Source of the DNA: Closterium sp. NIES-65
Taxonomy: Eukaryota; Streptophyta; Zygnematophyceae; Desmidiales; Closteriaceae
Assembly (NCBI GenBank): GCA_948144175.1
Contig: CANXME010000207.1
Coordinates: forward strand, 60,315 to 124,314
Direction of reading: 5' to 3'
Length of the DNA stretch: 64,000 nt
Shown here: piece after piece, positions 6,695-41,449 of the stretch
Position numbering within the stretch: position 1 is the first letter of the stretch
How the letters are laid out: every line of letters begins with the position of its first letter
Notes under the pieces: model-generated
Told to the model about the DNA's origin: nothing
The model's database searches: none
The model's input: only the letters and a program-made list of their open reading frames with translations
Program-made: the position numbers and the translations under genes

Positions 6695-6705
6695 GACAAC
6701 TACGG

Positions 6706-16700: not shown

Positions 16701-17060
16701 GACCAACAGTCGTGTTGGTCCAACCGCTCCATAGGGCCAACAGGCTAGTTGGTCCAACAGGCTAGTTGGTCGAACCGGTCCACTGGACCAACATGTAAGC
16801 TGGTCCAACCGGTCCATTGGACCAACAGGCAAGTTGGTTCAACCGGTCCACTCAACCAACAGGCCAGTTCGTCCAACCAGTCCACTAGAACAACAAGCCA
16901 GTTGGTTCAACTGGTCCATTGGACAAACAGGCCAGTTGGTCCAACCGCACCATTAGACCAATAGGCGAGTTGGTCCAACCAGTCCAGTGGACCAACATGC
17001 CAGTTGGTCCAACCGGTCCAAATGATCAATACGCCAATTGGTCCAACCGGTCCACCAGAC
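13793..17060. repeat. 34-bp satellite array, block 2
   Basis: Continuation of the same satellite, about 96 monomers, after the Copia-2 insertion. Monomer phase and sequence are the same as block 1. Confidence 0.95.
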
Positions 17061-17318
17061 TGATAATAATGGAGCTCAACTGATTGATTAGGAAAGAAGG
17101 CACTAGGCCTTAAGTACAAACGAGGTTGGGATGGGCAAGGCTAGGGAAAGGATGGGATGGGAATCCTAGCAAATCTCCAATTGGTGAGTTGGCAGATTTG
17201 TAGGATTACGAGGGAATCCCAACCAGTTAGGGTTGGGATCACAAACTACACCCAACCCGCAAATAACCTACGTGATATAGAATATAGTACACAAAGTGTT
17301 GACAGCCTAATTCTAACA
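17061..17318. repeat. Solo LTR (258 bp) in the satellite
   Basis: Starts TGATAATAATGG and ends TTCTAACA on plus. Flanks CAGAC (17056-17060) and TAGAC (17319-17323) are a near-match target duplication. The reverse complement is related to 51640-51846 (shared runs around TTTCTATATC and CATCCCAACC), which establishes it as a dispersed repeat. The LTR assignment rests on TG/CA ends and the flanks; the parent element is not in the window. Confidence 0.65.
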
Positions 17319-20300: not shown

Positions 20301-20953
20301 AGGCCAGTTGGTCCAATCGGTCCAGTGAACCAACACGCCAGTTGGTCGAACCGGTCCTGTGGACCAACAGTATAGTTGGTGCAACCAGTCCACTGGACGA
20401 TAAGGCCAGTTGGTTTAACCGGTCTACTGGACGAACATGCCAGTTAGTCCAACAGGTCCACTGGACCAACAGGCCTGTTGATCCAACCGATCCACTGGAC
20501 CAACAAGCCAGTTGGTCCAACCGTTTTACTGTACCAACAGGTCAGTTGGTCCAACCGGTCCACTAGATCAACAAGCCAGTTGGTCCAACCGTTTTACAGT
20601 ACCAACAGGTCAGTTGGTCCAACCGGTCCACTGGACGAACATGCCAGTTAGTCCAACAGGTCCACTGGACCAACAGGCCAGTTGATCCAACCTGTCCACT
20701 AGACCAACATGCTTGTTGGTCCAACCGGTCCACTGGACCAACAGACTTGTTGATCTAACCGGTCCACTGGACCAACAAGCCAATTGGTCCAATATGTTTA
20801 CTGTACCAACAGGTCAGTTGGTCCAACCGGTCTACGGAACCAACAGGCCGGTTGGTCCAACCCGTTTACTGGACCAATAGGTCAATTGGTCCAACCGGTC
20901 CACTAGATCAGTTTGTTGGTCCAACTGGTCCACTGGACCAAGAAGCTAGTTGA
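17319..20953. repeat. 34-bp satellite array, block 3
   Basis: About 107 monomers, ending near 20953 where the sequence changes to unique DNA and then a TG microsatellite. Several segments show exact short duplications of multi-monomer blocks (for example around 20510-20650). Confidence 0.95.
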
Positions 20954-21065
20954 TGTTGTGTGATGCAATCATATGCATACACGTCTGTCTGCCTCCCATC
21001 ATATGTTTGTGCATTGCATGGTTGGTGCGAACGTGCGCAAGCATTGTGTTAAGTGGTTGCAATTT

Positions 21066-21208
21066 TGTGTGTGTGTGTGTGTGTGTGTGTATGCGTGCGT
21101 GCGTGCGGACGTGCGAGCGCGCGCGTGTGTGCATGCGTGCGTGCGTGCGTGCATGCGTGCGCGTGTGTGTGTATGTATGTGTGTGTATGTGTGTGTGTGT
21201 GTGTTTGA
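21066..21208. repeat. (TG)n / (TGCG)n microsatellite
   Basis: Alternating TG, TGCG and TGTATG runs lead directly into the first (GA)n tract at 21207. It lies between the satellite and the LINE chain. Confidence 0.9.
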
Positions 21209-21225
21209 GAGAGAGAGAGAGAGAG
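21207..21225. repeat. (GA)n tract 1
   Basis: About nine GA units, immediately before the first LINE promoter block. Confidence 0.9.
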
Positions 21226-21346
21226 GCCCTAGGAGCTAGTCCTTAGCCTCTCCAGCACTCTCCAGCATAGTATAAAGTGCTCCTCTGCAGCTAGCTCTCT
21301 TCATTGTTCGGTTCTCTTTTCATTTGCTCTCCTAACCGAGCGGCTC

Positions 21347-21348
<2 letters not shown>
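21225..21348 (+). promoter_or_regulatory. LINE 5' promoter block, outer copy (element A)
   Basis: 124-bp block from GGCCCTAGGAGCTAG to CGGCTCGCG with a TATA-like AGTATAAAGTGC at about 21268. Nearly identical blocks stand at 26732-26856 and 34226-34350. Here it is followed by (GA)n rather than by the rest of the 5' UTR. Confidence 0.65.

Positions 21349-21427
<79 letters not shown>
21349..21427. repeat. (GA)n tract 2
   Basis: About 39 GA units with one GCGA interruption near 21382, separating the two promoter blocks of element A. Confidence 0.95.
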
Positions 21428-21428
<1 letters not shown>

Positions 21429-21554
21429 CCCTAGGAGCTAGTCCTTAGCCTCTCCAGCCCCCCTCCAGCCTAGTATAAAGGCCCTAGGATCTGTTCCTAG
21501 TGCCTCATTATTCGTTTCATAGTTCATGTGCCCTCCTAACCGAGCGGCTCGCGC

Positions 21555-21602
21555 CGGCCGCCTTCGGCGGCCGACGCTCGATTGCGCGGCCTTCGGCCGC
21601 GC
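21555..21602 (+). promoter_or_regulatory. Twin GC hairpins in LINE 5' UTR
   Basis: Hairpin 1 is an 8-bp stem, CGGCCGCC-TTC-GGCGGCCG (21555-21573). Hairpin 2 is GCGCGGCC-TTC-GGCCGCGC (21584-21602). Hairpin 1 is conserved in B (27038-27056) and E (34352-34370); hairpin 2 is conserved in E and degraded in B. Confidence 0.7.
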
Positions 21603-21688
21603 GTGAGGGGCGGCAAGGAAAGCAGGGACATAAGCAAGTATAGGAAAATATACAAGCATGCATCACACCAAACAGGCCTAAGAGATAC

Positions 21689-24600
21689 ATGGAGCAAGAG
21701 GAGCCCGCAACTAGCAGCGGTGAGCTCCCGGAGCACGCAGCCGCCACATCCCGTACGCGTCAAGCCGTGCAAGCTGCCCCAACAGCGCAAGAAGAGCCCG
21801 CGCCTACAAGCGGTGAGCTCCAAGGGCATGGAGAATGCCCGTCAGGGAGCGCCACAGCTCCCGGACCACAATTGTGCTTGCGCCGATCGCCGCGGCTCCA
21901 GATCCAGCGCGCAAGTGCCGCTTCAAGCTCCGGACAGCCTCACCAAGCTGTCCCGCGGCAGCAGCGCCTCCCTCTGCGGGCGCAGCCAGCACGGGCGCCA
22001 GCAGCTCCGCGAGCTGGTCAGCCGCGTCGAGGCACGGGTCACGCAGGTGGCTGCGAAAGGACTCGGGCGGGACAGCAGGGAGAGACGAGTGCGCAAGCAC
22101 TTGAATCAGAAGCAAAGCATGCAGGCTCTCCGCGAGACGGTGAAGCTGACCAAGCGTGGTCTCAGGAACGCGCGTCTGCGGAGGCAGCAGAGCCGCCGCC
22201 AGGAACCGGAGAGACGCATCAGCAGCGTTCGGAGCCGCATTCGCGCCACTACCCGCCGCCACGAACTCTACCCCCGCGACAGGCGGAACAGGTGGCAGAT
22301 GAAGGCGGGAGCCAGTCGCCGGCGTCGCAACAGAAGGATAAGGAACGGACGGGGCAGGGACATGAGGAAGAGGAGCAACAGCAGGCGGAGGGGCTACATG
22401 ATGCACAGGCGAACGAGGAGCAACGGGCTCCGGAGCAGCCTGCCGCGAATTGCTCTGGCCCGGCGCGGCCCTCCCTTGACGTACGGCACGCGACACCTCC
22501 CGAGACACCTCGCGCTGGAGGTCCGCCAGCGTCACTGGCGGCCGATACGACCCGCCTCCACCGCGCCCCGTGGGGCCCCGCCATCCCCGACTGCCACCCG
22601 AGTGCGTTGGCCACTGGGCCTGCTGCTGGTAGCGCCGGGGGGAGTTCCGCCGGCGCCGAGACGTCTCGCGCTCCTGCGGTGGCGCGGGAGAATGGGGCCG
22701 GGACAAGCGGCGGTCAGGCGACGGGGGACGAGACGGCGGAACAACCGGAGCCGCAGGCGGTGGAACGGGAGGAGACTGATCCGCGCTCGGAAGAGCAACC
22801 ACCGAGGGCGGGCCGCCAGTGGTGGCGGACACCGCAGGCGACGAAGAAGCAGACGCCAGCATCGGCACGCCGGGGACAGCACCGGCAGGTGCAGCTGGAA
22901 CGCCAGGCCCTGGGACAGGATGAGCGGCGACCCCCCCGGCAGGAGCAGATGCCGCCAGCGGCACGGCAGGAACAGGGAGAACAGGCGGAGAGGGGGCGAC
23001 AGGCGGAGCGGGAGGAGCAACCATCGGCGCAGACGGCTCAACCCCGTTCACGACGAGAGGACGTGCGGATACGAGGGGAGGAGTCTTTTCAGCGGCTACT
23101 AGGCCGGGCGGCAGAACAGACAGTGGCGGGGAACCCGTCGCCTCGGTCCTCGCTCCTGAGGCAGACGACGGCCTTTCGAGTACAACCGACGCGGCGCCAA
23201 CGCGCATTGGCGAATAATCAGTCACACCAGCAATCACCATCGCGAGGACAGGAAGCGCGAGGCGATGGGCGGGCAGCAGGTAGCGGTCGAGGAGGTGGGC
23301 CAGAAAATGGCTATCAGAGGGAGGCCAGAAGGGCTTTAACTAGGCTACTTAATGACGAAGAGGAAAATGACCCCTCTTATAGAGAAGAGCCAACGCCATC
23401 CAGTACGGAGGAAGGGTCAGAAGCAGAGGAAGGGGTAGAGGAGAATGGGAGAAGGACAGGAGCGAGAACAAGGCGGTCCCGAGGAGAGGGAACGACCACC
23501 GCGGCTGGACCGTGCGATGGCAATCGTACGGGCGAAATTCCAACCGCACCATCACAAGCAAGGCCGAGCCGCACCGGGAGAAATCGGGCCGCGACGGCAG
23601 GGGCATCGGTGCGAGACAATCCCAATCGCCCGCGCTATTTTACGCCAGAGGAGTTGGCGACGCGAGCAGATCTGTTCGCTGGCGTCGAGAACTGGGATAT
23701 CCCAGCCCTCTGCGATAGTCGACAACCATCCCTGGCAAGGCGGTTACCGCCCAATTTGTGCCAGTTGTTTTCGCTGGCGCTGCTAACCCCGTTACTCAAC
23801 CTGTCACGAAACCCGGAAGGAGAGGCAGGTTGGCGCCTACTCCTATTTCTGCCACGTCTGACGCTTCGCCAGACCTCGCCACGGAAACCAAACTGGCCCC
23901 AGATCAAGGCCCGGCTCCGAGCCTTCCAACGTGGCGAGTGGGGTCAACTGTACCAGGATGCGATCGAAGCAGTCAACACTCCCACGCCTCCACGTCACAA
24001 GCCCGACGCAACCGGGGTCATCAGCAGGGCCGAGGGCCTGGCGAAACGGGGTAGCCTACGACGCGCTGTGCTGGCGTTGGAGTCAACGCCGGTCTGCACC
24101 CCAACTCCGGAAATTCTGGAGGAGCTTCGACAGAAACACCCGCCAGCCGAAGCAGGGGAGACGACGTGGCCACCCTCGCCCGAGTCAAAATTGTTCATCA
24201 CCCAGGCTGACTTCGCCAAACTGTTGGGAAGGTGTGAAAATGGGGTCGGTGCTGGGCCATCGGGAACGACATTCGAACACATGCGCGACGCGGCAATCAC
24301 GAATAGACGAGTTAGCACCCATCTGCACGCCTTGGTTAACACCATTTTGGGGGGCAACCTTCCAGCACCGGTGTCGGACCTTCTGACAGCTTCACGGCTC
24401 ATTGCCCTGGCCAAACCCGGTGGGGGGGCTCGACCAATCGCCATTGGCGAATGCATCACGCGGCTGACTGCCAAAGCAGCCCTCGCAGCCATGGGAGAGG
24501 TCGCGCGGGCCTTTTTCCTACCTCTACAGTATGGCGTAGCCGTGCCTGGAGGAGCCGAGGCAGTCATCCACGTGGCACGGGCGTATCTGGACAAGCTTCC

Positions 24601-26563
24601 CAACAGCCTCGTGCTGCAAACCGACATCTCAAATGCATTCAACAGTATTTCACGGCAAGCCATCGCGACAGCGTTACAAGGACCAGAATTGTCGCCACTA
24701 CTGCCGCTGGTGAAACTGACATACGGTAACCCGTCGAAATTATTCGTCGACGCGAATTTTGGATCGGACCCACTGATCAGCGAACGGGGCGTGCGCCAAG
24801 GGGACCCACTTGGCCCACTACTGTTTGCGGCAGGTATGCACACTACACTCCGCGACACTGCTGCAGCACACCCCCAGGTGCTGTGTCTGGCATACGCCGA
24901 CGACGTCACATTCCTGGGGGAGGCGACGGCTACTGTAGCAGCCTTCAACCATTTCACCGAGCAGCTGGCACACCTGGGGTTACGGCATAATGCGCAGAAA
25001 TGCGCAGCTTGGAGCACACAAGCAGCAGTAAAGGATTTGCTGCCGCACGACGTACCATTCTCCCAGGATGGTGTTCGCTTGCTCGGAAGCTTTGTGGGGC
25101 CTGACAGTGGGGCGTCACAGTTCCTGTCGGGTCAGCTGGAGGAGATGGCCAAACCCCTGCCACTGCTCGAGAAAGCCGACCCGCAGGTAGCCTCGTTATT
25201 ACTCACCCGCTGCATTTCGAGGCGTGTGGCATACCTTACCAGAACAACACCGCTCTCCCTTTTGCCGCGAGAAACCTGGAGCCAGTGGGGGACAGACCTG
25301 CTAGCGGCCCTACTCACAGCATGCCACCTTCGCGTCCCCACCTGCCGTACCGAGCAAGCACGTGTCTGGGCGCAGGCGTCCCTGCCGCCGTCTTTGGGAG
25401 GGATAGGCATTGCTGACCCGCTGGTCGAGGGTGTTTTCGGGTTCGCAGCGAGCTTCACGCAGGCGGCGCTTTTCATCGCATCACTAGACGGCGCTCCTGA
25501 GGGCGCGCTGGCGCAGGCGCGGGACCACATGCAGTTGCCTGCTGACACCACCACACCCCTTCACACGTGGCTGTCGGAGTGTGAAGCAGCGTTACCCGAC
25601 GATGCGCGAGAAGTCCTGGAGAAAGAACGGCTGGAGCGAACCGATGTGAGGCTCCAGCACGCATTGGCGCTAAGGGTGCATGGGAGTAGATATGCGGCGC
25701 AGGTGCAGGCGACGAGGGAGATGGCGGTGAACCCCTTATGCGGACATACGCAGCGGATGTACTCAATGACGGGGTACGGGACTGGGGATTGGCTGACCGC
25801 TATCCCGATTGCGGCCAACAGGAGGATAGGGCCCACTCATTTTTCCAATGCCGTACGTTTCCGGCTGGCCCTCCCCTTCTCCACGCCGAAGAATTGCGAC
25901 TGTGCGGACCACACGGAGATCATAGACCCCCGCCTCCCGAATCACCTTCTCCGCTGCGGCACGGGCAGGCATCGCATCAACACCCACAACGAGCTGCGCG
26001 ATGCCTGTGTCAGCATGGCCCAGGACGCGGGTTTCATCGTTCACAGAGAATCCTCAGCGCACTGCCCCGTTGAGGAACAGACGGCAGATTTTACAATGAC
26101 GGACAGAAGCAGTGGGGCCGTCTATGTATGTGATGTCACCATCACCGACCCCATCAGCACAAGGGACCCGGAGGCACAGAAGGGCAGGGGCTGGGCGGCC
26201 CGGGAGCAAGCGGACAAGAAAATCCAGCACTATGCCTCCCTACCAGAGACGGTGACCTTCCTCCCCCTGGCTGTGGACACCTATGGCTGCCCGTGTGCGG
26301 AGGTCCCAGCCTTTTTGAAGCTCTTAGCGGACACTGCAGCTCGGCGACACTTCAACGCCGACTCTAAATCGTTCTATGCTGCAAAGTTCCTGCACCAGTT
26401 CAGGCAGCGCTGGTCTGTGGCCCTGCAAAGGGCCCAATCTGTAGGCCTCCTGCTAAAACTTGGGGAGGCGGCGGCGGTTGAGAACCCGCCGGTGGGAGGA
26501 ATTGGGGATGAGTTGCATCTAGGGGACTGCTTTGGAGTGATTGAGCCCCTCGTAGAGCTGTAG
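21689..26563 (+). CDS. LINE A polyprotein: reverse transcriptase with restriction-like endonuclease
   Basis: 1,624 codons, uninterrupted. Residues 1 to ~640 are Gln/Glu/Arg/Pro-rich and probably disordered, with a conserved LRRSPRLQIQRA word near residue 67. The RT has DISNAFNSISR, GVRQGDPLGPLLFA and the catalytic AYADDV (Y1069). A thumb/linker region follows, then a zinc-binding C1403-X-C-X13-H1419-X3-C1423, then HNELRD and a PD-(D/E)XK-like nuclease (ADF around D1467, CDVTI around D1482, downstream Lys). This order is that of R2/NeSL-type LINEs, in which nicked target DNA primes reverse transcription. There is no N-terminal AP endonuclease. The ATG at 21689 is chosen because copies B and E start at the equivalent EEPA/QEPA segment. 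Frames on minus (21804-23240) and in the other plus frame (21582-23102) are GC-bias shadows. Confidence 0.9.
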   Translation: MEQEEPATSSGELPEHAAATSRTRQAVQAAPTAQEEPAPTSGELQGHGECPSGSATAPGPQLCLRRSPRLQIQRASAASSSGQPHQAVPRQQRLPLRAQPARAPAAPRAGQPRRGTGHAGGCERTRAGQQGETSAQALESEAKHAGSPRDGEADQAWSQERASAEAAEPPPGTGETHQQRSEPHSRHYPPPRTLPPRQAEQVADEGGSQSPASQQKDKERTGQGHEEEEQQQAEGLHDAQANEEQRAPEQPAANCSGPARPSLDVRHATPPETPRAGGPPASLAADTTRLHRAPWGPAIPDCHPSALATGPAAGSAGGSSAGAETSRAPAVARENGAGTSGGQATGDETAEQPEPQAVEREETDPRSEEQPPRAGRQWWRTPQATKKQTPASARRGQHRQVQLERQALGQDERRPPRQEQMPPAARQEQGEQAERGRQAEREEQPSAQTAQPRSRREDVRIRGEESFQRLLGRAAEQTVAGNPSPRSSLLRQTTAFRVQPTRRQRALANNQSHQQSPSRGQEARGDGRAAGSGRGGGPENGYQREARRALTRLLNDEEENDPSYREEPTPSSTEEGSEAEEGVEENGRRTGARTRRSRGEGTTTAAGPCDGNRTGEIPTAPSQARPSRTGRNRAATAGASVRDNPNRPRYFTPEELATRADLFAGVENWDIPALCDSRQPSLARRLPPNLCQLFSLALLTPLLNLSRNPEGEAGWRLLLFLPRLTLRQTSPRKPNWPQIKARLRAFQRGEWGQLYQDAIEAVNTPTPPRHKPDATGVISRAEGLAKRGSLRRAVLALESTPVCTPTPEILEELRQKHPPAEAGETTWPPSPESKLFITQADFAKLLGRCENGVGAGPSGTTFEHMRDAAITNRRVSTHLHALVNTILGGNLPAPVSDLLTASRLIALAKPGGGARPIAIGECITRLTAKAALAAMGEVARAFFLPLQYGVAVPGGAEAVIHVARAYLDKLPNSLVLQTDISNAFNSISRQAIATALQGPELSPLLPLVKLTYGNPSKLFVDANFGSDPLISERGVRQGDPLGPLLFAAGMHTTLRDTAAAHPQVLCLAYADDVTFLGEATATVAAFNHFTEQLAHLGLRHNAQKCAAWSTQAAVKDLLPHDVPFSQDGVRLLGSFVGPDSGASQFLSGQLEEMAKPLPLLEKADPQVASLLLTRCISRRVAYLTRTTPLSLLPRETWSQWGTDLLAALLTACHLRVPTCRTEQARVWAQASLPPSLGGIGIADPLVEGVFGFAASFTQAALFIASLDGAPEGALAQARDHMQLPADTTTPLHTWLSECEAALPDDAREVLEKERLERTDVRLQHALALRVHGSRYAAQVQATREMAVNPLCGHTQRMYSMTGYGTGDWLTAIPIAANRRIGPTHFSNAVRFRLALPFSTPKNCDCADHTEIIDPRLPNHLLRCGTGRHRINTHNELRDACVSMAQDAGFIVHRESSAHCPVEEQTADFTMTDRSSGAVYVCDVTITDPISTRDPEAQKGRGWAAREQADKKIQHYASLPETVTFLPLAVDTYGCPCAEVPAFLKLLADTAARRHFNADSKSFYAAKFLHQFRQRWSVALQRAQSVGLLLKLGEAAAVENPPVGGIGDELHLGDCFGVIEPLVEL

Positions 26564-26653
26564 ATTGGCGAGGTTTGCAACCGGCATGCTTGTTATCTAG
26601 GCCACTATAACTTGCCTGCCTGTACTTGACTGCTATATCAATAAAAGGACCAT

Positions 26654-26654
<1 letters not shown>
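26564..26654 (+). other. LINE A 3' UTR
   Basis: Ends ATCAATAAAAGGACCATT before (GA)n. B and D end ATCAATACAAGGACCATT, and C ends ATCAATACAAGGACCGCTT. The shared terminal word is probably the part read first by the reverse transcriptase. Confidence 0.7.

Positions 26655-26731
<77 letters not shown>
26655..26731. repeat. (GA)n tract 3
   Basis: About 38 pure AG units between the 3' end of LINE A and the first promoter block of LINE B. Confidence 0.95.
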
Positions 26732-26733
<2 letters not shown>

Positions 26734-26853
26734 CCCTAGGAGCTAGTCCTTAGCCTCTCCAGCACTCTCCAGCATAGTATAAAGTGCTCCTCTGCAGCTA
26801 GCTCTCTTCATTGTTCGGTTCTCTTTTCATTTGCACTCCTAACCGAGCGGCTC

Positions 26854-26856
<3 letters not shown>

Positions 26857-26922
<66 letters not shown>
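26857..26922. repeat. (GA)n tract 4
   Basis: About 33 GA units between the two 5' blocks of LINE B, at the same point (after CTCGCG) as tract 2 in LINE A. Confidence 0.95.
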
Positions 26923-26925
<3 letters not shown>

Positions 26926-27176
26926 TAGCCCCTGTCCTCTGCCCCTAGCCTCTGTCCTTGCCTTTCAGCCATATTTAAGGCCTTCCTAAGGCCGTTCTCT
27001 TCTTCATTAGTTTGGCGGCTGGAATTTTCGCTCGCGCCGGCCGCCTTCGGCGGCCGACGCTCGACGGCGTGACCTTCGGCCGCGCGAGAGGTGTGGCAAG
27101 CGCAAACACAATCGAGTAACAATAAGCAACGACACGCATATACGCAATGGCTGGTCCTACTCGGAACTAGGAACAA

Positions 27177-30100
27177 ATGGCATCAATTGGGCAGCAGGAG
27201 CCCGCATCTACATGCGGTGAGCTCCAAGGGCGTGAAGAACGCCCGTCAGGGAGCACCACACCTCCCGGACTACAAGCGTGCTTGCGCCGATCGCCGCGGC
27301 TCCAGACCCAGCGCGCAAATGCCGCTTCAAGCTCCGGACTGCCTCGTCCAGCTGTCCCACAGCAGCAGCGCCTCCCTCCGCGGGCGCAGCCAGCACAGGC
27401 GCCAGCAGCACGGCGAGCTGGTCCGCTGCATCCAAGCAAGTCTCGCGCGGACGGTCGCGGAACGTCTCTGGAGAGACCACAGGGAGCGAAGAATGGGCAA
27501 GGACCTGTATCAGCAGCAAAGCGTGAAGAATCTCGGCAAGACGGTAGAGCTGAGCGAGAGTCGACTGAGGAACACGAGTGTGCGGAGGCTGAAGCGCCTC
27601 CACCAGGAACTGGAGCGGCTCATCAGCTGCATATTGAGCCGACCCCGCGACACCACCCGCGGCCACGAACTCCACCCCTGCAACAGGCGGAAGCGGCGGT
27701 AGCCGCAGACGGGAACCAGGAACGGGCGCTGAGGCGGGATGAGACGGAGCAGACGGGGCGAGGACGGAAGGAAGGACGGCAGCTACAGGCGGAAGGGCTA
27801 CAGGAGGCTCAATGGGACGGGGAGCCTCAAGTGCTGGCGCGGCCCGCAGGGAACTGCTTTGACTCTGCGCCGCCCGCTCCTTGCGCACAGCCCGCGACAC
27901 CTCCGCTGGAGATCCGCCATCGTCACAGGCGGACGATACCTCCCGCCACCACCTCGACCGTAGGGGCCCCTCCAGCCCCCATTGCCACCAGGGGGGGCAG
28001 GCCACTGTGCCTGCTGCTGGTAGCGCTGGGGAGAATTGCGCCGGCGCCGCGACGTCTCGCGCTCCTGTTGGGGCGCAGGAGAATGGGGGCGGGACTGGCG
28101 GCGGTCCGGCGACGGGGGGCGAGACGACTGCACCCCAGGGGCCGCCGGCGGCTGAGCGGGAGCTGGCGGGTCGGCGCCAGGAGGAGCATCCATCGGAGCA
28201 GGGTCGTCAGTGGTGGCGGACGCCGCCTTTGGGGAAGAAGCAGACACAGGCACAGGCACGCCGGGGACCGAAGCAGACGGCACAACGAGTGCACGAACAA
28301 CGGGACCGGAGCGAGCAGCTGCCTCCCCAGCAGGCGCGGACACCACCGGTGGAACCGCAGGAGCCAGGTGCGCTGGAGCAGGAGCAGCAGACGGGACAGG
28401 CGGAGCCTCAGCAGGAGCAGACGGGCCAGCCGCTCCCCCCCCCCTGGGGAGCCACGGGTGCGGGGGGATGAATCTTTTCAGCGTCTGCTAACGAGGGCTT
28501 CGGAGCCGCGGTAGAGGAGGTTTCAAGGCAGTGGTCGCCCTTTCGGGCTCCGACTGAGGCCTGGCGACGACAGCCGACCAGGCGGCAGCGAGCTCTGGCG
28601 ACGGCTCGTCAGCACCAGGAATCACCATCTCAAGCGCGGGGAAGTCGAGGGACGGAACGGCAAACGGCAAGCGGGGTTGGCGGAGGCCCGGAGAATGGTT
28701 ACCAGGCAGCGGCTAGAGTGGCTTTAACCAATTTGACTACAGCGAATGATGAAGACGAGCGGCAGGATCCCTCTTATATAGAAGAGGCAGCACCAGCTAG
28801 CGAGGGCGAAGAGACAGAGGAAGAGGAAGGCAGGGCGAGAAGGAACACCGGCGGATTGACTGAAGTGGGGGAGCAAGCACGCTTGGACACGCCCCAGGAG
28901 ACACGCCCACCGCTCGATGCAGAACGGACGGAGGGGATTCCAACCTCCGCTCCCAGGGCACGAGGGAATCGCCCAAGAGGAAATCGGCCAGCAGACATTG
29001 GGACTGCAACACGCCCAGCCGCTTCGGTCCCCCGCTATTTTTCGCCAGACGACCTCGCGAAGCGGGCAGACCTGTTCGCTGCAATCAGTACTTGGGATAT
29101 CACGGCCCTGTGCGACAGTCGCCAGCCTTCACTGTCGCGGCGCTTACCGCCGAATTTGTGTCAGCTGTTCTCACTGGCGATGCTGACGCCGTTACTACAC
29201 CTCTCACGAAACCCCGAGTCAGAGGCAGGATGGCGCCTGCTGCTATTTCTCCCGCGCCTAACCCTTCGCCAGACCTCGCCTCGCCGTCCGGATTGGACCA
29301 AAATCAAAGCTCGTCTCCGAGCCTTCCAGCGTGGCGAATGGGAGCAATTGTACCAGGACGCGGTCGACGCGGTCAACATGCCACCTCTGCCCCGCCACCG
29401 TCCCGACGCGACAGGTGTGATCAGCCGGGCTGAGTGTCTAGCGAAACGTGGCAGCCTTCGAAGGGCCGTACTCGCCCTTGAGTCAACCCCCGTCTGCACT
29501 CCCAGCCCCGAAATTTTGGAAGAGCTGCGTCAGAAACACCCTCCAGCAGCGAGCGAAGGGGTGACCTGGCCAACCACGAGTGAGTCAACACTTTCAATCG
29601 CCCACGCGGGATTCGCCAAGATGTTGGGCAGATGCGAAAATGGAGTTGGAGCGGGGCCTTCTGGGATGACATTTGAGCATTTGCGCGACGCGTCAATCAC
29701 AAACGCGACGGTCCGAACCCATCTGCACGCCTTGGTTAACACCATCCTGGGTGGAAATCTGCCAGGCCCGGTGGCGACCCTCTTAACCGCATCGCGGCTT
29801 ATTGCTCTGGCCAAGCCGGGAGGAGGCGCTCGGCCAATCGCGATCGGCGAGTGTTTGACCAGGCTGGCAGCCAAGGCTGCCCTGATGGTGATGGGCGAAG
29901 CTGCCCGCGATTTCTTCCTCCCCCTTCAGTATGGGGTGGCAGTGCCAGGTGGCGCCGAAACCGTAATCCACGCGGCCAGAGCTTTCCTGGATTCCCACCC
30001 TAACAGCCTGGTATTGCAAGCGGACATAAAAAACGCTTTCAACAGTATTTCGCGACAGGCCATCGCCACTGCGTTACACGCCCCCGAACTCTCGCCACTG

Positions 30101-31963
30101 CTGCCGCTCGTCAAACTAACCTACGGTAACCCGTCGCAGCTAGTCCTGGATTCCAACTACAACCCCGAACCACTGCACAGCGAACGCGGGGTTCGCCAGG
30201 GGGACCCACTTGGGCCGCTACTGTTTGCAGCGGGGATTCATGCTACACTACGCGACACTGCAGATGCTCACGCTAGGGTACTTTGCTTGGCGTATGCGGA
30301 CGACGTGACTTTCATAGGGGACTTTGAAGACACTGTAGCAGCATTTACACATTTCACAAGCAAGCTGTCGTTCCTGGGACTTGAGCACAACCCACACAAG
30401 TGCGCCGCCTGGAATCCGAGCGCAGTCCAAGCAGCACACCTACCTCAAGGGGTCCCCCTAACCAAGGACGGCGTGCAATTACTTGGCAGCTTCATAGGGC
30501 CTGATAGCGGCGCGACGACTTTTCTAACAAGGCAGCTTGACGAGATGGCGAAGCCGCTAAGACTCATCAAACAGACAGACCCACAGGTTGCGGCACTTCT
30601 CATCACTTGATGCATTTCGAGACGGGTCGCATACCTCACACGGACCACTCCTCTCAACCTCCTGCCCCGTGACAGATGGAGCCAGTGGGGTATGGACCTG
30701 CTCACCACGCTCCTCATTGCTTGTGACATCCGCACGCCGACCTGTAGGACGGAGCAGACGCGCATCTGGGAGCAGGCGTCGTTACCCCCATCACTAGGAG
30801 GCCTCGGTATCACTAATCCCCTCGTCGAAGGGGTTTACGGCTTCTCGGCGAGTTTTACCCAGGCAGCGTTGTTCCTCAACGAACTCACGCTGGAAGAGGG
30901 GACCGCGCTCTCGTTGGCAAGGAATCATATGCTCCTCCCGCGCGACGTCAGCACTCCACTACACACATGGCTGAGGGGGTGTGAAGCCGCACTGCCAACA
31001 GACGCGCTGGAGGTTTTAGAGAAGGAGCGGCTGGAGCGTTCTGACATTCGGCTCCAGCACGTGCTCGGACTGAAGGTGCACGGGAGCCGGTATGCCGTAC
31101 AGGTGCAGGCGACGAGGCAAATGGAGTTGAACCCGCTAGCCGGACACACGCAGCGGATGTACTCCTTGACTGGATATGGCACCGGCGACTGGATTACGGC
31201 CATCCCAGTGGCTCCCACAAGGCGGATTGGGCCGGTGCATTTCGCCAATGCAGTACGCTTCCGCCTCGCGCTGCCGTTTTCCACCCCTAAAAACTGCGAC
31301 TGCTCAGAGCACACGGCCATCACTGACCCCCGGCTCCCAAACCACCTTCTCCGGTGCGGCACGGGCAAGCACCGCACTAACACCCACAATGAGCTGCGGG
31401 ACGCATGCGTAAGCATGGCGCAGGATGCGGGCTTTATAGTACACAGGGAGTCAACGGCCTACTGCCCCATCGAGGAACAAACGGCTGATTTCACAATGTC
31501 GGACAGAAGCAGTGCAGCGGTCTACATCTGCGACGTCACGGTCACTGACCCAATAAGCACTAGGGATCCGGAGGCTCAGAAAGGCAGAGGGTGGGCGGCA
31601 CGTGAGCAGGCCGACAAGAAGATCAAGCACTATGCCAACCGCCCGGAGACCGTTGGCTTCTTCCCCCTCGCAGTGGACACTTACGGCTGCCCGTGTGCTG
31701 AGGTTCCCGTATTCCTTAAGCTCCTGGCAGACTCGGCGGCTCGGCGGCACTTCAACGCCGACTCCAAATCTTTCTATGCCGCCAAGTTCTTGCACCAGTT
31801 CCGGCAGCGTTGGTCCGTGGCCCTTCAACGGGCCCAATCCGTGGGGCTTCTGATGAAATTGGGTGAGGCTGCAGCAGCAGAGAATCCTCCTGTGGGGGGC
31901 ATCGGGCATGAACTGCACCTGGGGGACTGTTTTGCGGTGGTGGAACCACTCCTGGAGATTTAG
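27177..31963 (+). pseudogene. LINE B polyprotein, frameshift and nonsense
   Basis: The frame opens at ATG 27177 with the same N-terminal region as A (LRRSPRLQTQRA) and stays open to GDESFQRLLTRASEPR, stopping at 28512. The homologous frame resumes by 28718 (another frame) and carries the whole RT (AYADDVTFIG) to a TGA at 30608-30610, where A has CGC (Arg) in TRCISRR. After the TGA the same frame runs on through the CCHC motif (NCDCSEHTAI) and endonuclease (ADFTMSDRSS, CDVTVTDP) to 31963. One frameshift plus one nonsense codon make it non-functional unless read through. Confidence 0.9.
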
Positions 31964-32079
31964 AGTGGGGTAGCAGGGTGGCAGCAGAGGTAGCCTAGGT
32001 GATGTTGCATCGTGTTTCATGTTGTTTGCTTTCTACCTTGCATGTGTGTACCTTCCGGCTCTATCAATACAAGGACCAT

Positions 32080-32080
<1 letters not shown>

Positions 32081-32160
<80 letters not shown>
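32081..32160. repeat. (GA)n tract 5
   Basis: 40 pure AG units between LINE B and LINE C. Confidence 0.95.
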
Positions 32161-32162
<2 letters not shown>

Positions 32163-33853
32163 CGAGGCGGGTGCAGCTGAGAACCCACCTGTGGAAACGG
32201 CGTGAAGCTGTTAGGCAGTTTCATAGGCTCCGATGAGGCCACAGCAGACTTCATCCGTTCAAACCTTAGCTCCATGGCGGCACCTCTTGGCCTGATAGCA
32301 CGGATGGAACCTCAGCTGGCTGCCCTGCTACTCGCCAGGTGTATCTCAAGACGAGTTTCTTACCTCATCCGAACCACACCCCTCATGCATATGCCTCTGT
32401 ATGAGTGGTCCGGTTGGGGCAGGCAGTTGTTTGAGACTCTGTTAACGGCATGTGGCATTAGTCATCCGCGGGGTGATGCTGAGATCTCTCGTACATGGTC
32501 CCAAGCTTCGCTGCCAGTATCACTTGGGGGCCTCGGAATCACTGACCCCGTGGTCGAGGGCAGCTACAGCTACCTAGCTAGCTTTACCCAGGCACAGCAG
32601 CTGCTCTCAACCCTTGAAGATAGCCAGCTGGGGCCCCTGACAGGGACACGGGTGCAGATGATGGGACCGTATACAGACTCCTGCGCTCTCTATCGCTGGC
32701 TAGCTCAGTGCGAGGCAGACCTACCGAGTGATGCCGGGGAGCTACTACAGAGTGACAGGGCTGCTCCCACGGGTGTGAAGCTGCAACAGGGGCTAGCTTT
32801 GGCAGTTCAGGGCAGAAGGTATGCTAACCAGGTGGAGAGCACAAGGGGCATGACCCCAAACCCCAATAGCGGCCATACGCAGCGCCTTCTCTCTTTGTCA
32901 GGGTACGGAGCCGGGGACTGGCTCCATGCAGTCCCGCTCATGCCCTCCCTGAGGCTCGACGGTCCCCAGTTTGCCACAGCCCTACAGTTCAGGCTAGGAC
33001 TACCATTTTCAGCCCCCGGCGCTTGTGACTGCACCAAGCAGGTTCCCATCCCAGACAATCGGCTTCCAAACCATCTGCTACGCTGCGCCACAGGAGGGGG
33101 AAGGACAAATACTCACAACGAGCTGAGAGATGAGTGCATTAGGATGGCACAGTACGCCGGGTTCATGGTGCACAAGGAAACGTCGGAGTTCTGCCCGGTC
33201 ACTAGGAAGACAGCGGACCTCGCCATTCGTGAACGGTCTTCAGGGGCAGTATGGATCGGGGACGTCACCATCACTGACCCCATCAGCACACGTGACCCCA
33301 ATGCGGTGAAAGGGAGGGGGTGGGCTGCCAGGGAAGCCGCTGACAAAAAAATCTCAGACTACAGCAGCTCCCCGGCAGCCTACGTCTCATTCGTACCCCT
33401 CGCAGTCGAGACTTATGGCTGCCCATGCGCAGAGGTCCCCGCTTTCCTCAAGCTCTTGGCTCACACGGCTGCACGCAAGCTCTTCAACGCCGACCCTTCA
33501 ACCTACCAGGCGGCAAAACTACTCAACCAGTTCCGCCAGAGATGGTCGGTCGCCCTTCAGCGCGCGCAGGCCGTAAGCTACATGGCCAAGTGCAACATGG
33601 CAGCAGAGGCCCAGAACCCTCTTGTCGGGGCCCCTGGCGAGGAAATGTCCCTGGGGGACTGTTTTGTGGTGCTCGAACCTACTGCTGAGCCCCCTTAGGA
33701 GCTTCCAGTGGAGGGGGGGTGGCTGGTGGGTAGGGTTGTAGGTTGATCTTCGGATCTGGGTTGCTGCTAGGTTGTTCTTTTAGTCTCTAGTGTTGCCTGT
33801 TTCTATTCTGCCTCGATCGTTTGTACTCACCCGTTATATCAATACAAGGACCG

Positions 33854-33856
<3 letters not shown>
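32161..33856 (+). mobile_element. LINE C: 5'-truncated, divergent subfamily
   Basis: After a 34-bp start shared with copy D, the coding region begins at VKLLGSFIGSDE (the end of the RT region) and runs open to TAG 33696-33698: CISRRVSYLIRTTPL, SLGGLGITDPVVEG, ACDCTKQVPI zinc motif, ADLAIRERSSGAVWIGDVTITDP nuclease. The protein is clearly less similar to A and B than they are to each other, so C is a separate subfamily. The 3' end is ATATCAATACAAGGACCGCTT, then (GA)n. Confidence 0.9.
32202..33698 (+). pseudogene. LINE C C-terminal polyprotein fragment (endonuclease half)
   Basis: 498 codons, open. It lacks the N-terminal region and the RT catalytic core. It contains the zinc-binding CxC...H...C, the THNELRDECIRMAQ helix and the D...D-V-T-I nuclease core, and ends SLGDCFVVLEP. 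The apparent first codon is GTG inside the RT region, so this is a 5'-truncated insertion and not a gene start. The 34-bp prefix is out of frame with it. Confidence 0.85.

Positions 33857-33945
<89 letters not shown>
33857..33945. repeat. (GA)n tract 6
   Basis: About 44 GA units between LINE C and LINE D. Confidence 0.95.
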
Positions 33946-33947
<2 letters not shown>

Positions 33948-34137
33948 CGAGGCGGGTGCAGCTGAGAACCCACCTGTGGGCGGCATTGGGCAGGAGTTGC
34001 ACCTTGGAGATTGTTTTGCAGTGATAGAGCCCCTCCTAGACCTTTAGGGGGGGGGTTTAGGGTAGGATTTGCCTTTGTGTGTATGCATCTATACCCTGCA
34101 TGCTTGTACCTGGCGGCCACATCAATACAAGGACCAT

Positions 34138-34138
<1 letters not shown>
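33946..34138 (+). mobile_element. LINE D: 193-bp 3'-end fragment
   Basis: Reads GEAGAAENPPVGGIG...LGDCFAVIEP to a stop at 34045-34047, then a short 3' UTR ending ATCAATACAAGGACCATT and (GA)n. This is an extreme 5' truncation, as expected from incomplete target-primed reverse transcription. The first 34 bp are the same as the start of copy C. Confidence 0.9.

Positions 34139-34225
<87 letters not shown>
34139..34225. repeat. (GA)n tract 7
   Basis: About 43 AG units between LINE D and LINE E. Confidence 0.95.
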
Positions 34226-34227
<2 letters not shown>

Positions 34228-34350
34228 CCCTAGGAGCTAGTCCTTAGCCTCTCCAGCACTCTCCAGCATAGTATAAAGTGCTCCTCTGCAGCTAGCTCTC
34301 TTCATTGTTCGGTTCTCTTTTCATTTTCTCTCCTAACCGAGCGGCTCGCG
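34226..34350 (+). promoter_or_regulatory. LINE E promoter block
   Basis: The same 124-bp block as at 21225 and 26732, with TATA-like AGTATAAAGTGC. Here it is joined to the rest of the 5' UTR without an intervening (GA)n, which shows the undisturbed structure. Confidence 0.65.
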
Positions 34351-34481
34351 CCGGCCGCCTTCGGCGGCCGACGCTCGACAACGCGGCCTTCGGCCGCGCG
34401 TGAGGGGTGGCAGGGAAACACACACACGATTGACTACAAGCAACGGCATACATGGCGGCATCAACACAATCCTAAGCACAA

Positions 34482-35393
34482 ATGGCCACGCAAGGGCAAG
34501 CGGAGCCCGGATCTACATCCAGTGAGCTCCAAGGGCATGGAGAATACCAGTCAATGTCCGCCACAGCTCCCGGACCACCAGCGTACTTGCGCCGATCGCC
34601 GCGGCTCCAGATCCAGCGCGCAAGTGCCGCTTCAAGCTCCGGACAGCCTCGTCCGGCTGTCCCGCAGCAGCAGCGCCACCCTCCGCGGGCGCAGCCAGCA
34701 CGAGCGCCAGCAGCACGGCGAGCTGGTCTGCCGCATCCAAGCAAGTCTCGCGCGGACGGTCGCGAAACGTCTCAGGAGGGACTCCAGGGAGCGAGGAGTG
34801 AGCAAGGACTTGTATCAGCAGCAACGCGTGGAGACTCTCTGCGAGGCGGTGGAGCTGACCGAGAGTCGACTCTGAAACACGCGTCTGCGGAGGCTGAAGC
34901 GCCTCTGCCAGGAACTGGAGCGGCTCATCAGCTGCACAATGAGCCGCTTCCGCGCCACCATTTGCGGCCACAAACTCCACCCCCGCAACAGGCGGAACCG
35001 TCGGCAGATGCAGACGAGAGCCCGGAGATGGCGCCGCCACGGAAGGATAGGGAGACGACGGGACGAGGACAGGGGAGGGAAGCGGAGCAGCCGGCGGAGG
35101 CACCACAGGAGGCACAGGTGGGCGAGGAGCCACGGGCGCCGACGTTGCTCGCGGCGAACTGCTCTGGCTCTGCGCCGCCCTCTCCTCGCGAACGGCCCGG
35201 GACACCTCCCGCTGTAGATCCGCCATTGTCACAGGCGGACGATACCTCCCGCGACCACCACGCCCGGGGAATCCCCTCCAGTCACCATTGCCGCCAGTAT
35301 GAGCAGGCCACTGGGCCTGTTGCTGATAGCGCCGGGGGGGAGTTGCGCCGGCGCCGCGACGTCTCGCGCCCCTGTTGCGGCGTTGGAGAATGA
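34482..35393 (+). pseudogene. LINE E N-terminal ORF fragment
   Basis: 303 codons of the disordered Gln/Arg/Pro-rich N-terminal region, corresponding to residues of A before the RT. It ends in a stop after a frame change relative to A and B. No domain is recognised apart from the conserved LRRSPRLQ word. Confidence 0.7.
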
Positions 35394-35540
35394 GGCCGTG
35401 AGAGACGGCGGTCAGACGACAGGGGACGCGACGGCCCACCAACTGGGACTGCTGGCGACAGAGTGGGAGCCACCAAATCCGAGCCGGGAGGCGCAACCAT
35501 CGGGGCCGGGCCGATAGTGGTGGCGGACGCCACCTTCGGG

Positions 35541-35688
35541 TATCGACTTTTGGGTGTTGGAAAATTCGTCCCCATCACTGTAGATGCTGCCGAGTGGTTG
35601 GCAAGTGTGGCCAAGTTGGTGTGAGGTGGATTGTGGAGGTTGGGTAAATGACTAGGGTCATAGTTGGGTTCCTAGTGTTGGTCCTACC
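35541..35688. other. Short unassigned sequence between LINE E and Copia-3
   Basis: No gene or repeat recognised. It ends in CTACC, the left target-site duplication of Copia-3. Confidence 0.5.
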
Positions 35689-35817
35689 TGTGAGAATAAA
35701 CGAACAGGGATGAAAATGACTAAGGAAAGATGGGTACAAATACAACCCTAGAAACCCTGTACCCCATATGTGCTACCCCACTATAGCCTAGAACAACTAT
35801 GTCATATAAATCTGACA
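35689..35817 (-). repeat. Copia-3 3' LTR
   Basis: TGTGAGAATAAACG to AAATCTGACA on plus, 129 bp, one difference from the partner. Confidence 0.95.
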
Positions 35818-36023
35818 CACCCCCATAGGCAAAGTGGGGGAGAACAAGGGGTCACAAGACCAGTCAAGCAAAGCAAAGCAAGCTCAGGGTGGATCACAAA
35901 GTCACCACACAGTCCGAGCACAAGAGTAGGGCCAGAGGCCAGTTCACATGCAGGAGTACAGACATATATATAAAACTAGACAAACAAGAGCAGGCATATA
36001 TATATGTCTCAGTACAAGTGAAG

Positions 36024-39000
36024 TCAAGAGGAGAGCAAGTGAGGCAAGACAGGCACAAGACCCAGCTGGGTGCAAAAGCGCTGATGGTCACAAGGCGCGA
36101 GTGCCTTGGTGAACACATCAGCAGTGTTGGCCTCAGAGGCCACGTACGCAAGTCGCAACTGACCACGCTGCTGCAGCTCACGAGCAAGGAAGTAGCGGAG
36201 AGCAATGTGCTTCGTTCTGTGCTCCAAGCGCTGCTCTCGACACAAGGCCAGCATAGCCTTGTTGTCTACGTACAGCACTGGAGGAGAACGAAGCAGCTCT
36301 CCAAGGTCAGTCAGCAGGTAGGTGAGCCAGCGAAGCTCCTGTGCAGCCATGGCCCCGGCGTAGATCTCAGCCTCACAACTGGAGCCGAGAACCGAAGACG
36401 AGCGAGTAGACCGCCACGAGACAGAGCCGGAACCAAGGCTGAAGGTGTAACCCTGTGACGACCGCTGCGTAGCCTGGTCGTCAGCCCAAGAAGCGTCCGC
36501 GTGGCCGGTAAGGACCACTGGACTCCGCCCTCCAAGCACTAGCCCCATGCCCGACGTGCTGCACAGGTAGCGCAATACCCTCTTCGCTGCAGCCATGTGC
36601 TCCGGTCTGTGTCTCCCAGGAGCAACATAGCGTGCAAGAATGCTCAGAGGGTATGCAAGGTCAGGTCGTGTGCAGGTCATCAGGTACATGAGGCAGCCAA
36701 CAAGCTCTGCATACGGACCACTCGACTCTACGGACTCATCCGAAGGCAGAGCTGAGAGTGAGTGGCGAGTAGGCAGAGGAGTGGCCTGAGGCGAGGAGTA
36801 CGTGAAGCCGAAGCGCTGAAGGACCTGCTGCACCATGTGTGACTGAGTCAAGGTAATGGTGCGGCGTGCTCTGTCCCGAGTGATCTGCAAGCCAAGGTAG
36901 CTGCGCAGTTCACCCAGGTCTGTGCACGTGTGTCTCTTCAGCAGCTCGGACTTCACGTAGGCGAGTCCAGCAGTGTCCGCTGTGGCAAAGACCAAGTCGT
37001 CGACGTACACGAGGATGTAGAACGGCGGCAGCGAGGTGTCGGTGCGCAGAAACAGCGACGGGTCAGCAGTAGAAGGAGCAAACCCAAGAGCCGCAAGCGT
37101 AGTCCTCAGTGTGTCGTGCCACTCACGCGGTGCCTGGCGGAGACCGTAGACTGGCCGTCTGAGGCTCCACTGGGTGCCAGGAGGGAAAGTCCCAGTGAAG
37201 CCAGGTGGACGGCGCAGCCAGATCTCCTCGTGCAGGCTACCCTGCAGGAACGCAGTGCTGAAGTCAAGAGAGTGAAGCTCGTAGTCGCGCTGAGCGGCTA
37301 TGTGCAGCAGCACCCGAAGAGTGGTCATCTTCGGGGTGGGAGAGAAGGTCTGAAAGTAGTCAACTCCCTGCCGCTGACTGAAGCCACGAGCAACGTACCG
37401 CGCCTTGAAGACAGGTGGAGAGCCCGGCGGCCGCTTCACCCGGAAGATCCACATGCCACTGACGATGTTCGCCCCAGGAGGGGGAACTGCGTCAACGTAG
37501 GTGCCTGTGGACTTCCAGGAAGCCATCTCTGCATCCATAGCTGCCTGCCACTGAGAGGAGTAGGGACCCTCTACGGCCTCCGCGTAAGAACGCGGAGTCG
37601 GGATGTCTAATGCATCCGGGTCTCCCTCAGGGGCAAGTAGTACAGACGCGAGATGAGGTGAAGCAGCCGCTAGACACTGTAACTCCTCCTGTCTGTCCTC
37701 TAGGACGTCCGTGCCAAGAGCACACTCACCCCCGACGGACGGAGGACAGACAGACGCAGACTCAGCAACAAGACCAGCAGCGTAGTCGAGACGACAGCGA
37801 GCAGCAAAGTCAACGAGCTCAGCGACTAGAGCAGACGCAGCAGTGGACTCAAAAGAGGGGTCAGTGACGACAGTAGCAAGCAGACGCGTGACAGTAGGAC
37901 TGGCAGCGCGAAGAGAGTTTGACTCAGGGTCGGCAAGCGCAGGAAGAGAGGACTCAGGAGGAGAAGGCAGAGGGGCACGCAGAGGAGCAGTGGACGGACG
38001 CAGAGACATCCGGTGCGTGCCAGGGACAGGAGGAGGACGCTGACGCGAACCGCGACCACTAGCGCGAGCAGCACGAACAGGCGACGCGGGACGAGACGCA
38101 GGCTCACGACGCTCAGCAAGACCTCCAGTAGGACCAGTGTAAGGAGAGGGAGCAGGCAGAGGAGAGGAAGGCTCCAACAGTGACTGCGACTGGACAGGCT
38201 GTGGACACTCTACCGAAGGAGAAAGACCAAGAACCTGCTGTAGGAGCGGAACAAAGTACGGCCGAGGCCGCGCGGCAGCTCCAGACTCAGCAGGGACAGC
38301 ACCAGCACCCTCAGCGACAGCACCAGCGCCACCCACACCTCCAGCGGCAGGACCAACAGCAGTAGGCTCAGCACCAACGCCCTCAGCACCTCCAGCTGCA
38401 GGAGGACCCTCAGGTCCAGCAGCTCCGGGACCGGCAGCACCCGCACCCTCGACGGTCGAAGAAGCTCCAGCTCCAGCTCCAGCAGCACCTCCAGACTCAG
38501 CAGCACGCCTCCAGCGGCGAGCGTACCACTCGCGCAGCTCCTGTGGAGAGAGGGGCTCCCGGCGAGACGCAGCAGCAGGAGAAACCCCAGGCTCAGCAGC
38601 TCCAGACGCAGCAGGGACAGCACCAGCACCCTCAGCGACAGCACCAGCGCCACCCACACCTCCAGCGGCAGGACCAACAGCAGTAGGCTCAGCACCAACG
38701 CCCTCAGCACCTCCAGCTCCAGGAGGACCCGCAGGTCCAGCAGCTCCAGGACCGGCAGCACCCGCACCCTCGACGGTCGAAGAAGCTCCAGCTCCAGCTC
38801 CAGCAGCACCTCCAGACTCAGCAGCACGCCTGCAGCGGCGAGCGTACCACTCGCGCAGCTCCTGTGGAGAGAGGGGCTCCCGGCGAGACGCAGCAGCAGG
38901 AGAAACCCCAGGTTCAGCAGCTCCAGACGCAGCACCCCCAGGCTCAGCAGCTCCCAGGTCAGCACCCCCACGCTCAGCAGCTCCCGACCCAGCACCCTCA

Positions 39001-41352: not shown

Positions 41353-41449
41353 TTGGCTCCGCAAGTAGAAGCAGGAGCAGGACTAGCAGCAGGGAGGCAG
41401 GCAGCCAGGCAAGCCAAAAGGCAGGCAGGCAGGCAAGCAGGCGACGCGC

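Follow-up and report, generated by a model that had tools for sequence, protein, structure and literature searches.

How does a chain of retrotransposons come to stand head to tail in a genome, with a dinucleotide repeat at every joint? The question is raised by a 64-kb stretch of the Closterium sp. NIES-65 genome (contig C207, positions 60315 to 124314; the window), in which five copies, A to E, of one superfamily of R2-like long interspersed nuclear elements (LINEs) were found on the plus strand at 21207-35540. All five encode or match one reverse transcriptase (RT) protein. Our answer, to which we assign a probability of roughly 0.85, is that the superfamily targets (GA)n, that its chains grow by insertion upstream of older copies with renewal of the target, and that its heads stand in tandem. 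A head is defined here as a 5' unit of about 123 nucleotides (nt) with a TATA box, and a promoter unit as (GA)n plus a head. Comparisons covered the genome assembly of 874 Mb in 2,400 contigs. C1485, C2029, C2384, C32, C1805, C1822, C1825, and C1039 are other contigs of this assembly, and L-numbers denote sampled genomic loci of LINE relatives, of which L015 is the window itself and L048 lies on C1822.

Element 3' ends and the (GA)n rule

Copies A and B are full length, C and D are 5' truncated at different points, and E lacks its 3' part. Pairwise divergence among the chain copies is about 20 to 33%. Pure (GA)n occupies the A-B, B-C, C-D, and D-E gaps over 77, 79, 89, and 87 bp, respectively, and each of the eight (GA)n runs in the window with n of at least 6 marks a border of one of these elements or of a head. 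An initial annotation, made by a model from the sequence alone, had described the plus-strand chain of five with gaps of 77 to 89 bp. This description was confirmed, with the amendment that 123-nt units of the E type precede A and B. The annotation had also taken C and D to be 5' truncated, as in target-primed reverse transcription, which was borne out except that the 34 nt ahead of C are likely a duplication. It had overlooked that heads stand in tandem and that insertion occurs between them.

Within the window, the 15-mer ATCAATAMAAGGACC was found at only four sites when up to two mismatches were allowed (26637, 32063, 33838, and 34121; 0.12 expected by chance), and all four were exact. As had been claimed, this shared 3' end passes into (GA)n without poly(A) at each of them: it is followed by ATTA (A, B, and D) or GCTT (C) and then by GA. 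Copy C (33838-33856), L031, and L033 end in GGACCGCTT, not GGACCATTA, before (GA)n, possibly as a second 3'-end lineage.

Across the genome, the exact 15-mer occurred 396 times, and the backward-read control pattern was absent. The count of 3' ends that enter (GA)n, and that of extra heads below, are based on plus-strand matches, one per site; minus-strand matches, several per site, were left out. A check on whether most genomic copies lie outside (GA)n did not refute the proposed target, as GAGAGAGA was present within 8 nt of 214 of the 230 plus-strand ATCAATAMAAGGACC 3' ends. (GA)n tracts with n of at least 21 that end in G plus a non-A base number 3,401 in 874 Mb (the backward pattern also matches GA tracts and so is no control). 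The association of element 3' ends with (GA)n is far beyond chance.

The 3' untranslated region (3'UTR) and its flank were read at the best 30 of 40 scored loci, taken from 125 candidates. This sample favors the young A-type family, and since L003 and L004 have identical flanks and L015 is the window, the 30 loci are not all independent. All 30 were followed by (GA)7-94 (median, 74.5), and the bases before GA were ATTA at 29 loci and ATGA at 1, giving a precise 3' junction without poly(A). The 3' end joins the tract at ATTA/GA. At 19 of the 30 loci (GA)n leads directly into the 5' head of another element, and at four (L023, L025, L026, and L028) the coding sequence of a relative begins within 430 bp on the same strand. 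The downstream elements of L025 and L026 start within the open reading frame (ORF) right after GA, 5' truncated as in target-primed reverse transcription. Most copies lie in one simple repeat, as is expected of a microsatellite-specific LINE. At L030 (C1977:1902971-1903061 region), the (GA)n tract of the copy gives way to TTTAGGGTTTAGGGTTTAGG, a short stretch of plant-type, telomere-like TTTAGGG repeats, and then to other sequence.

Chains also occur outside the window. Among the first 100 of the 396 3' ends listed, 55 had a neighbor within 7 kb, compared with 0.6% expected for uniform placement, and the 32 adjacent pairs among these 100 ends (the four of the window included) comprised 31 on the same strand and 1 on opposite strands. 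These counts cover a single exact 15-mer and therefore miss relatives whose 3' ends differ.

Copy A contains a single ORF of 1,624 amino acids (aa) with an RT domain (PF00078; E value, 3.5e-19). When a profile of eight family members was compared with solved structures, R2 proteins ranked first (5.8e-16 to 1.8e-07), followed by group II intron RTs and, weakly, LINE-1. At the C terminus, residues C1403, C1405, H1419, and C1423 (C-x-C..H-x3-C) and D1467, D1482, and K1511 (D..D..K) are invariant in the alignment of eight, which we take to be the CCHC plus PD-(D/E)XK pattern expected of an R2-type endonuclease. The C-terminal part gave no Pfam match at the gathering cutoff, only a subthreshold alignment to an R2 chain, and one simple pattern for N-terminal zinc fingers had no match in copy A. 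The R2-type RT, the precise 3' junction without poly(A), and the presence of 5'-truncated copies are features of non-long-terminal-repeat elements of the restriction-like endonuclease (RLE) type. Insertion at the 28S ribosomal DNA (rDNA) site, which marks the strict R2 clade, was not found; the target appears to be (GA)n, and rDNA itself was not searched.

Sites without the copy and tandem putative promoter heads

Of eight genomic occurrences of a variant of the head motif, three are in the window, three on C1485, and two on C2029. On C1485, two anchors (window positions 61000-61600, 100% identical after rounding, and the head of E) are 26,751 bp apart, compared with 26,746 bp on C207, and the left flank aligned to that of the window with 459 matches, 3 mismatches, and 4 gap columns. 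This contig most probably represents the other haplotype. It reads h1-(GA)87-h2-(GA)77-B, whereas the window reads h1-(GA)35-C-(GA)43-A-(GA)77-h2-(GA)67-B, where h1 and h2 are the 123-nt units and the C between two GA runs is a single base. The intact final-head motif was detected in both A and E on C207 but only in E on C1485. Copy A is thus surrounded by (GA)n in the window and absent from C1485. The spacing from h2 to the final head of E, h3, is 7,473 bp on C1485 and 7,494 bp in the window, a near-equality suggesting that B, C, and D are present on C1485 too, where only the start of B was read. As far as C2029 was read, it has a similar arrangement, with an E-type head, heads of another type, and then, 5.5 kb on, a 3' end and an E-type final head.

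A second site was found in several states. C2384 carries the left flank, (GA)79, and an element of the GAATGG type, and L048 carries the left flank, an A-type copy with two heads between (GA)69 and (GA)91, and then a GAATGG-type element like that of C2384 (277/278 nt identical after the tract). On C32 and C1805, this left flank leads into (GA)nT(GA)n and no element is present, and on C1825 the site is occupied by a B-type element. These records (four further places were found from the L048 flank) are 96 to 99% alike in the flank. No site without the copy was obtained for L039, whose flank had no second full match in the assembly, or for L041, whose flank belongs to a dispersed repeat (scoring covered 40 of 253 candidates). 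For L032, matches to the right flank did not exceed 93%.

In both filled and empty pairs, A versus C1485 and L048 versus C2384, a single tract has given rise to two, which flank the new copy. This bears out the earlier claim that each insertion leaves fresh (GA)n, from which self-renewal of the target had been inferred. Because full-length copies start with (GA)n and a head, each of them offers a further insertion target at its own 5' end. Later arrivals take up this position in the same orientation, and the chains gain copies upstream of older ones, as seen at these two sites and consistent with the genome-wide data.

The identity of copy A to 11 full-length copies elsewhere was 99.3 to 99.8% for nine and 98.2% and 98.7% for the other two. 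Together with its absence from C1485, copies up to 99.8% identical indicate that the LINE family looks recently active. A search for relatives in viral contigs gave three candidate stretches, none of which was confirmed.

Units h1 and h2, ahead of A and B, are 98 to 99% identical to the 5' end of E, whereas the own head of A aligned to the latter with 97 matches, 23 mismatches, and 7 gap columns. Both h1 and h2 are most plausibly extra promoter heads that belong to E. A GC-rich double hairpin is common to 11 sampled 5'UTRs and is preceded by the more variable head. Covariation supported 0 of 19 pairs of the predicted double hairpin, and a search of Rfam at relaxed E values for a known RNA or ribozyme in the 5'UTR gave 21 matches in 21000-36000, none reaching the gathering score. 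In 21 of 23 head strings, the TATA box lies 30 to 35 nt from a YCATTRTTC-like start; the other two, L046 (in a 3'UTR) and L036 (ambiguous start), were set aside. The heads are predicted promoters, in which RNA would probably start downstream of the TATA box, as judged mainly from this spacing.

Many elements have further (GA)n-head units in tandem ahead of them, and each extra head stops at about the start of the hairpin block; the L046 row at 7872, a false match in a 3'UTR, was left out of this comparison. For one head-end type, 100 final heads (27-nt pattern) and 75 extra heads (15-nt pattern plus GA) were counted on the plus strand by patterns that differ in length, with up to five extra heads in a row. 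About five or six heads stand in a row before one element at L050:171-850 and on C802, C1642, C1337, and C1662. L032 has tandem heads of its own type, with no relative in 1.4 kb downstream. The two heads of L048 arrived together, because C2384 has neither, which shows that extra heads are copied with the element. Head number may also have changed by GA-GA exchange.

These sites suggest a mechanism. Reverse transcription of element RNA ending in ACCATTA would begin where the CT strand of a (GA)n tract has been nicked. The cDNA would run up to or into (GA)n at its 5' end, and this end would join the target GA. The C in the 5' tract of A resembles the GAGAGAGAGC junction before the final heads of related copies, and it is missing from the C1485 site, so part of the 5' GA of A probably came with the element. 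In that case, cDNA made from RNA reaching into upstream (GA)n would have joined the target by GA-GA pairing. With an RNA start inside the head, past the TATA box, a copy would retain a complete promoter only when its RNA had been initiated from a more upstream head. Such loss of the promoter would be avoided by tandem heads, and landing between the heads of a resident could supply the newcomer with an upstream promoter. Copy A landed between h1 and h2 of E, as the C1485 site shows, and we infer that B, C, and D landed between h2 and h3.

The build order of the chain can be proposed as follows. E would have entered a (GA)n tract with three heads, h1 to h3 (98 to 99% identical). D would then have entered the GA between h2 and h3, and C the GA in front of D, duplicating (GA)n plus 34 nt; the 34 nt common to the start of C (from 32161) and that of D are a probable target-site duplication of C. 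B would have entered the same h2-h3 interval, before or after C and D, and A, the last, the GA between h1 and h2. As a tentative extension, which we rate at somewhat below even odds, the element may be a self-hosting retrotransposon with its target built into its own promoter array. A newcomer would be driven by the promoter upstream of it, those downstream would still serve the resident, and the target would be re-created on either side. The supply of targets would increase with copy number, host genes would be spared, and the chain would grow at its 5' end, telomere-like but away from chromosome ends.

Features of the LINE chain, in window positions
Feature	Position	Strand	Remarks
Left-most tract, (GA)19	21207..21225	+	After TGTGTGTTT flank; identical on C1485
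Head h1, putative extra promoter unit of E	21226..21348	+	TATA at 21271; ends in CGAGCGGCTCGC; 122/123 versus E head, 123/123 versus C1485
5' tract of copy A, (GA)35-C-(GA)43	21349..21427	+	C absent from the C1485 site without A
Copy A, presumed youngest	21428..26655	+	Head (TATA at 21474, predicted start ~21507), GC-rich double-hairpin block, ORF 21689-26563 (1624 aa, RT), 3'UTR ending in ATTA
(GA)77 between A and h2	26656..26732	+	
Head h2, putative second extra promoter unit of E	26733..26855	+	121/123 identical to E head
(GA)67, 5' tract of copy B	26856..26922	+	
Copy B, full length, different head type	26923..32081	+	Coding in three frames: 27177-28514, 28718-30610, 30692-31963
(GA)79	32082..32160	+	
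Left copy of probable target-site duplication of C, 34 nt	32161..32194	+	100% to 33946-33979
Copy C, 5' truncated	32195..33856	+	C-terminal ORF part 32202-33698; 3' end GCTT
(GA)89	33857..33945	+	
Copy D, strongly 5' truncated (last 194 bp)	33946..34139	+	First 34 nt, right copy of the probable duplication of C
(GA)87	34140..34226	+	
Element E, presumed oldest resident	34227..35540	+	Final head h3 34227-34349 (TATA at 34272), hairpin block, 5' ORF part; similarity to A/B ends at 35540

Arrays of a 34-bp satellite (GGTCCAACCGGTCCACTGGACCAACAGGCCAGTT) adjoin the chain at 6704-12246 and 13793-20952, and a short block recurs at 42630-43023. The similarity of E to A and B stops about 150 bp ahead of a 130-bp direct repeat (35689-35818 and 42499-42628; 99%), which flanks Copia-type ORFs (36024-41364, minus strand; RVT_2) and perhaps represents very short terminal repeats. 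A second Copia-type polyprotein ORF (46302-48686) and a Ty3-type capsid ORF (5666-6583) also lie on the minus strand. Nearly perfect tandem arrays were found at 58005-58312 (25-bp units, 98%) and 59573-59703 (21-bp units, 100%).

Alternative explanations

Among the alternatives, the least unlikely one takes h1 and h2 to be long target-site duplications, (GA)n plus about 123 nt, that arose when A and B inserted. A precedent is R9 of a rotifer, described as having an "exceptionally long target site duplication" (PMC2861651). Both heads are 98 to 99% identical to that of E and are cut at the same point, and a duplication of (GA)n plus 34 nt is present at C/D. However, C1485 has h1-(GA)87-h2 without A, the tandem own-type heads of L032 stand without a relative in the next 1.4 kb, the extra head of L048 came with the copy, and the prediction made for C1039 failed. 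We consider this explanation unlikely. It was dropped for h1 and h2 in view of C1039 and the C1485 site without A, and the duplication of (GA)n plus 34 nt at C/D was kept.

Less probable still is that insertion is not GA specific and that copies insert widely but survive only in harmless GA tracts. Selection after insertion is invisible in one genome, and the chain of the window does adjoin a satellite and other retroelements. Against this stand the nine copies 99.3 to 99.8% identical to A, all of which have the ATTA/GA junction.

Segmental or tandem duplication of one ancestral element, or unequal exchange between its GA tracts, would explain a chain with no need for targeting. Long GA tracts are prone to recombination, and since the (GA)n-head units are tandemly repeated, exchange may well alter head number. 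As an account of the whole chain it is very improbable. The copies are 20 to 33% apart, yet A is 98.2 to 99.8% identical to 11 full-length copies elsewhere, C1485 has the site without A, C and D are truncated at different 5' points, and neighbors elsewhere are often of different head types. A single segmental duplication had been named in advance as an outcome that would overturn the idea of a self-renewing array, and this check did not refute it. The divergence of the copies refutes duplication for the chain and leaves it a possible source of head number. Equally improbable is that (GA)n is a 3' tail made by the element itself in reverse transcription, as simple-repeat tails are known for some LINEs: GA is gained per insertion (87 to 35+43+77; 79 to 69+91), and part of the 5' GA of A probably came with it, but all four sites without the copy (C1485, C2384, C32, and C1805) already carry GA, (GA)87 and (GA)79 among them, and sampled full-length copies are flanked by GA on both sides, not at the 3' end only.

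Several observations weigh against (GA)n targeting with growth upstream of older copies, or against parts of it. No GAGAGAGA was present within 8 nt at 16 of the 230 plus-strand 3' ends, and 7 of the 30 sampled loci lie in GA that is not directly ahead of a relative; in three of these (L018, L022, and L030) the coding sequence of a relative follows 0.8 to 1.35 kb further on. The endonuclease was recognized by motif only, with no significant domain match at the C terminus, so the designation R2-like is firm for the RT and only probable for the endonuclease. GGCT or GGCC stands before GA in the occupied records of the second site but is absent from C32 and C1805; these two, with a flank identity of 96%, may be paralogues and not alleles. 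Copy A could also have been lost at C1485 by recombination between the flanking GA tracts, and likewise the copy at C2384. Regarding the RNA start, the first heads of L043 and L044 are incomplete, with matches beginning at about +1 and +2. Sequence similar to head starts, however, extends over the 36 and 31 nt before these points, which makes an internal deletion no less likely than an RNA start, and these cases are suggestive only. The same applies to L047, which begins at about +5 of the head but also lacks the hairpin block. Finally, at L033/L034, L037, and C1039, copies stand behind heads of another type, whose resident was not detected in the downstream stretch examined.

Relation to known elements and implications

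Dong targets (TAA)n. Other microsatellite-targeting RLE LINEs are Togen, which uses (TG)n, and some HERO families (PMC4640811). The Closterium element resembles these three in its simple-repeat target and, by motif only, in its RLE type. It differs in that it targets (GA)n, often the 5' (GA)n of sister copies, and in its tandem (GA)n-promoter heads and same-strand chains. R2 is cotranscribed with rRNA. With R2 and R9 of rDNA the element shares a single ORF, an RT closest to R2 among solved structures, and the C-terminal CCHC plus D..D..K residues, but it targets (GA)n and probably has its own TATA promoter.

Nested LINE clusters are described for Zepp (Coccomyxa/Chlorella) and ZeppL (Chlamydomonas), which are grouped with L1 and form one cluster per chromosome, probably centromeric (PMC3446292, PMC8226300). 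The Closterium element also forms clusters of nested copies but has an R2-type RT and chains on many contigs, and a (GA)n target is unmentioned in the portions of these two descriptions that were available. In Drosophila, the telomeric LINEs HeT-A, TART, and TAHRE form head-to-tail arrays (PMC5537684, PMC3828246). The comparison with telomeric LINEs drawn in the initial annotation holds for this layout of related elements and fails for location: the chain of the window is not at a sequence end, with satellite on its left and more than 28 kb of other sequence on its right within the window. It also differs in inserting into a microsatellite and in placing the newcomer upstream of the older copy. 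Mouse L1 has tandem 5' monomers (PMC9022269). Tandem repeats in the 5'UTR are a common trait, with predicted promoters in the Closterium element, in which the insertion target forms the start of each unit and other elements insert between the units.

Targeted literature searches on RLE LINEs of green algae and streptophytes and on named microsatellite LINEs gave no close match. Microsatellite-specific RLE LINEs, nested clusters, telomeric arrays, and 5' monomers are each known singly; their combination in one element, in which the target forms part of the putative promoter unit and newcomers insert between such units of a resident, was not found in the literature searched.

Site-specific LINEs rely on scarce host targets, such as rDNA, telomeres, and microsatellites, and the Closterium element appears to generate its own targets. 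By turning one long GA tract into two, and by placing one ahead of full-length copies, a selfish element could multiply without exhausting safe sites. The tandem (GA)n-TATA heads may likewise be a solution to the problem, common to LINEs, of keeping a promoter upstream of the RNA start. Since the family looks recently active, the ideas of a self-supplied target and of tandem promoters can be tested in living cells.

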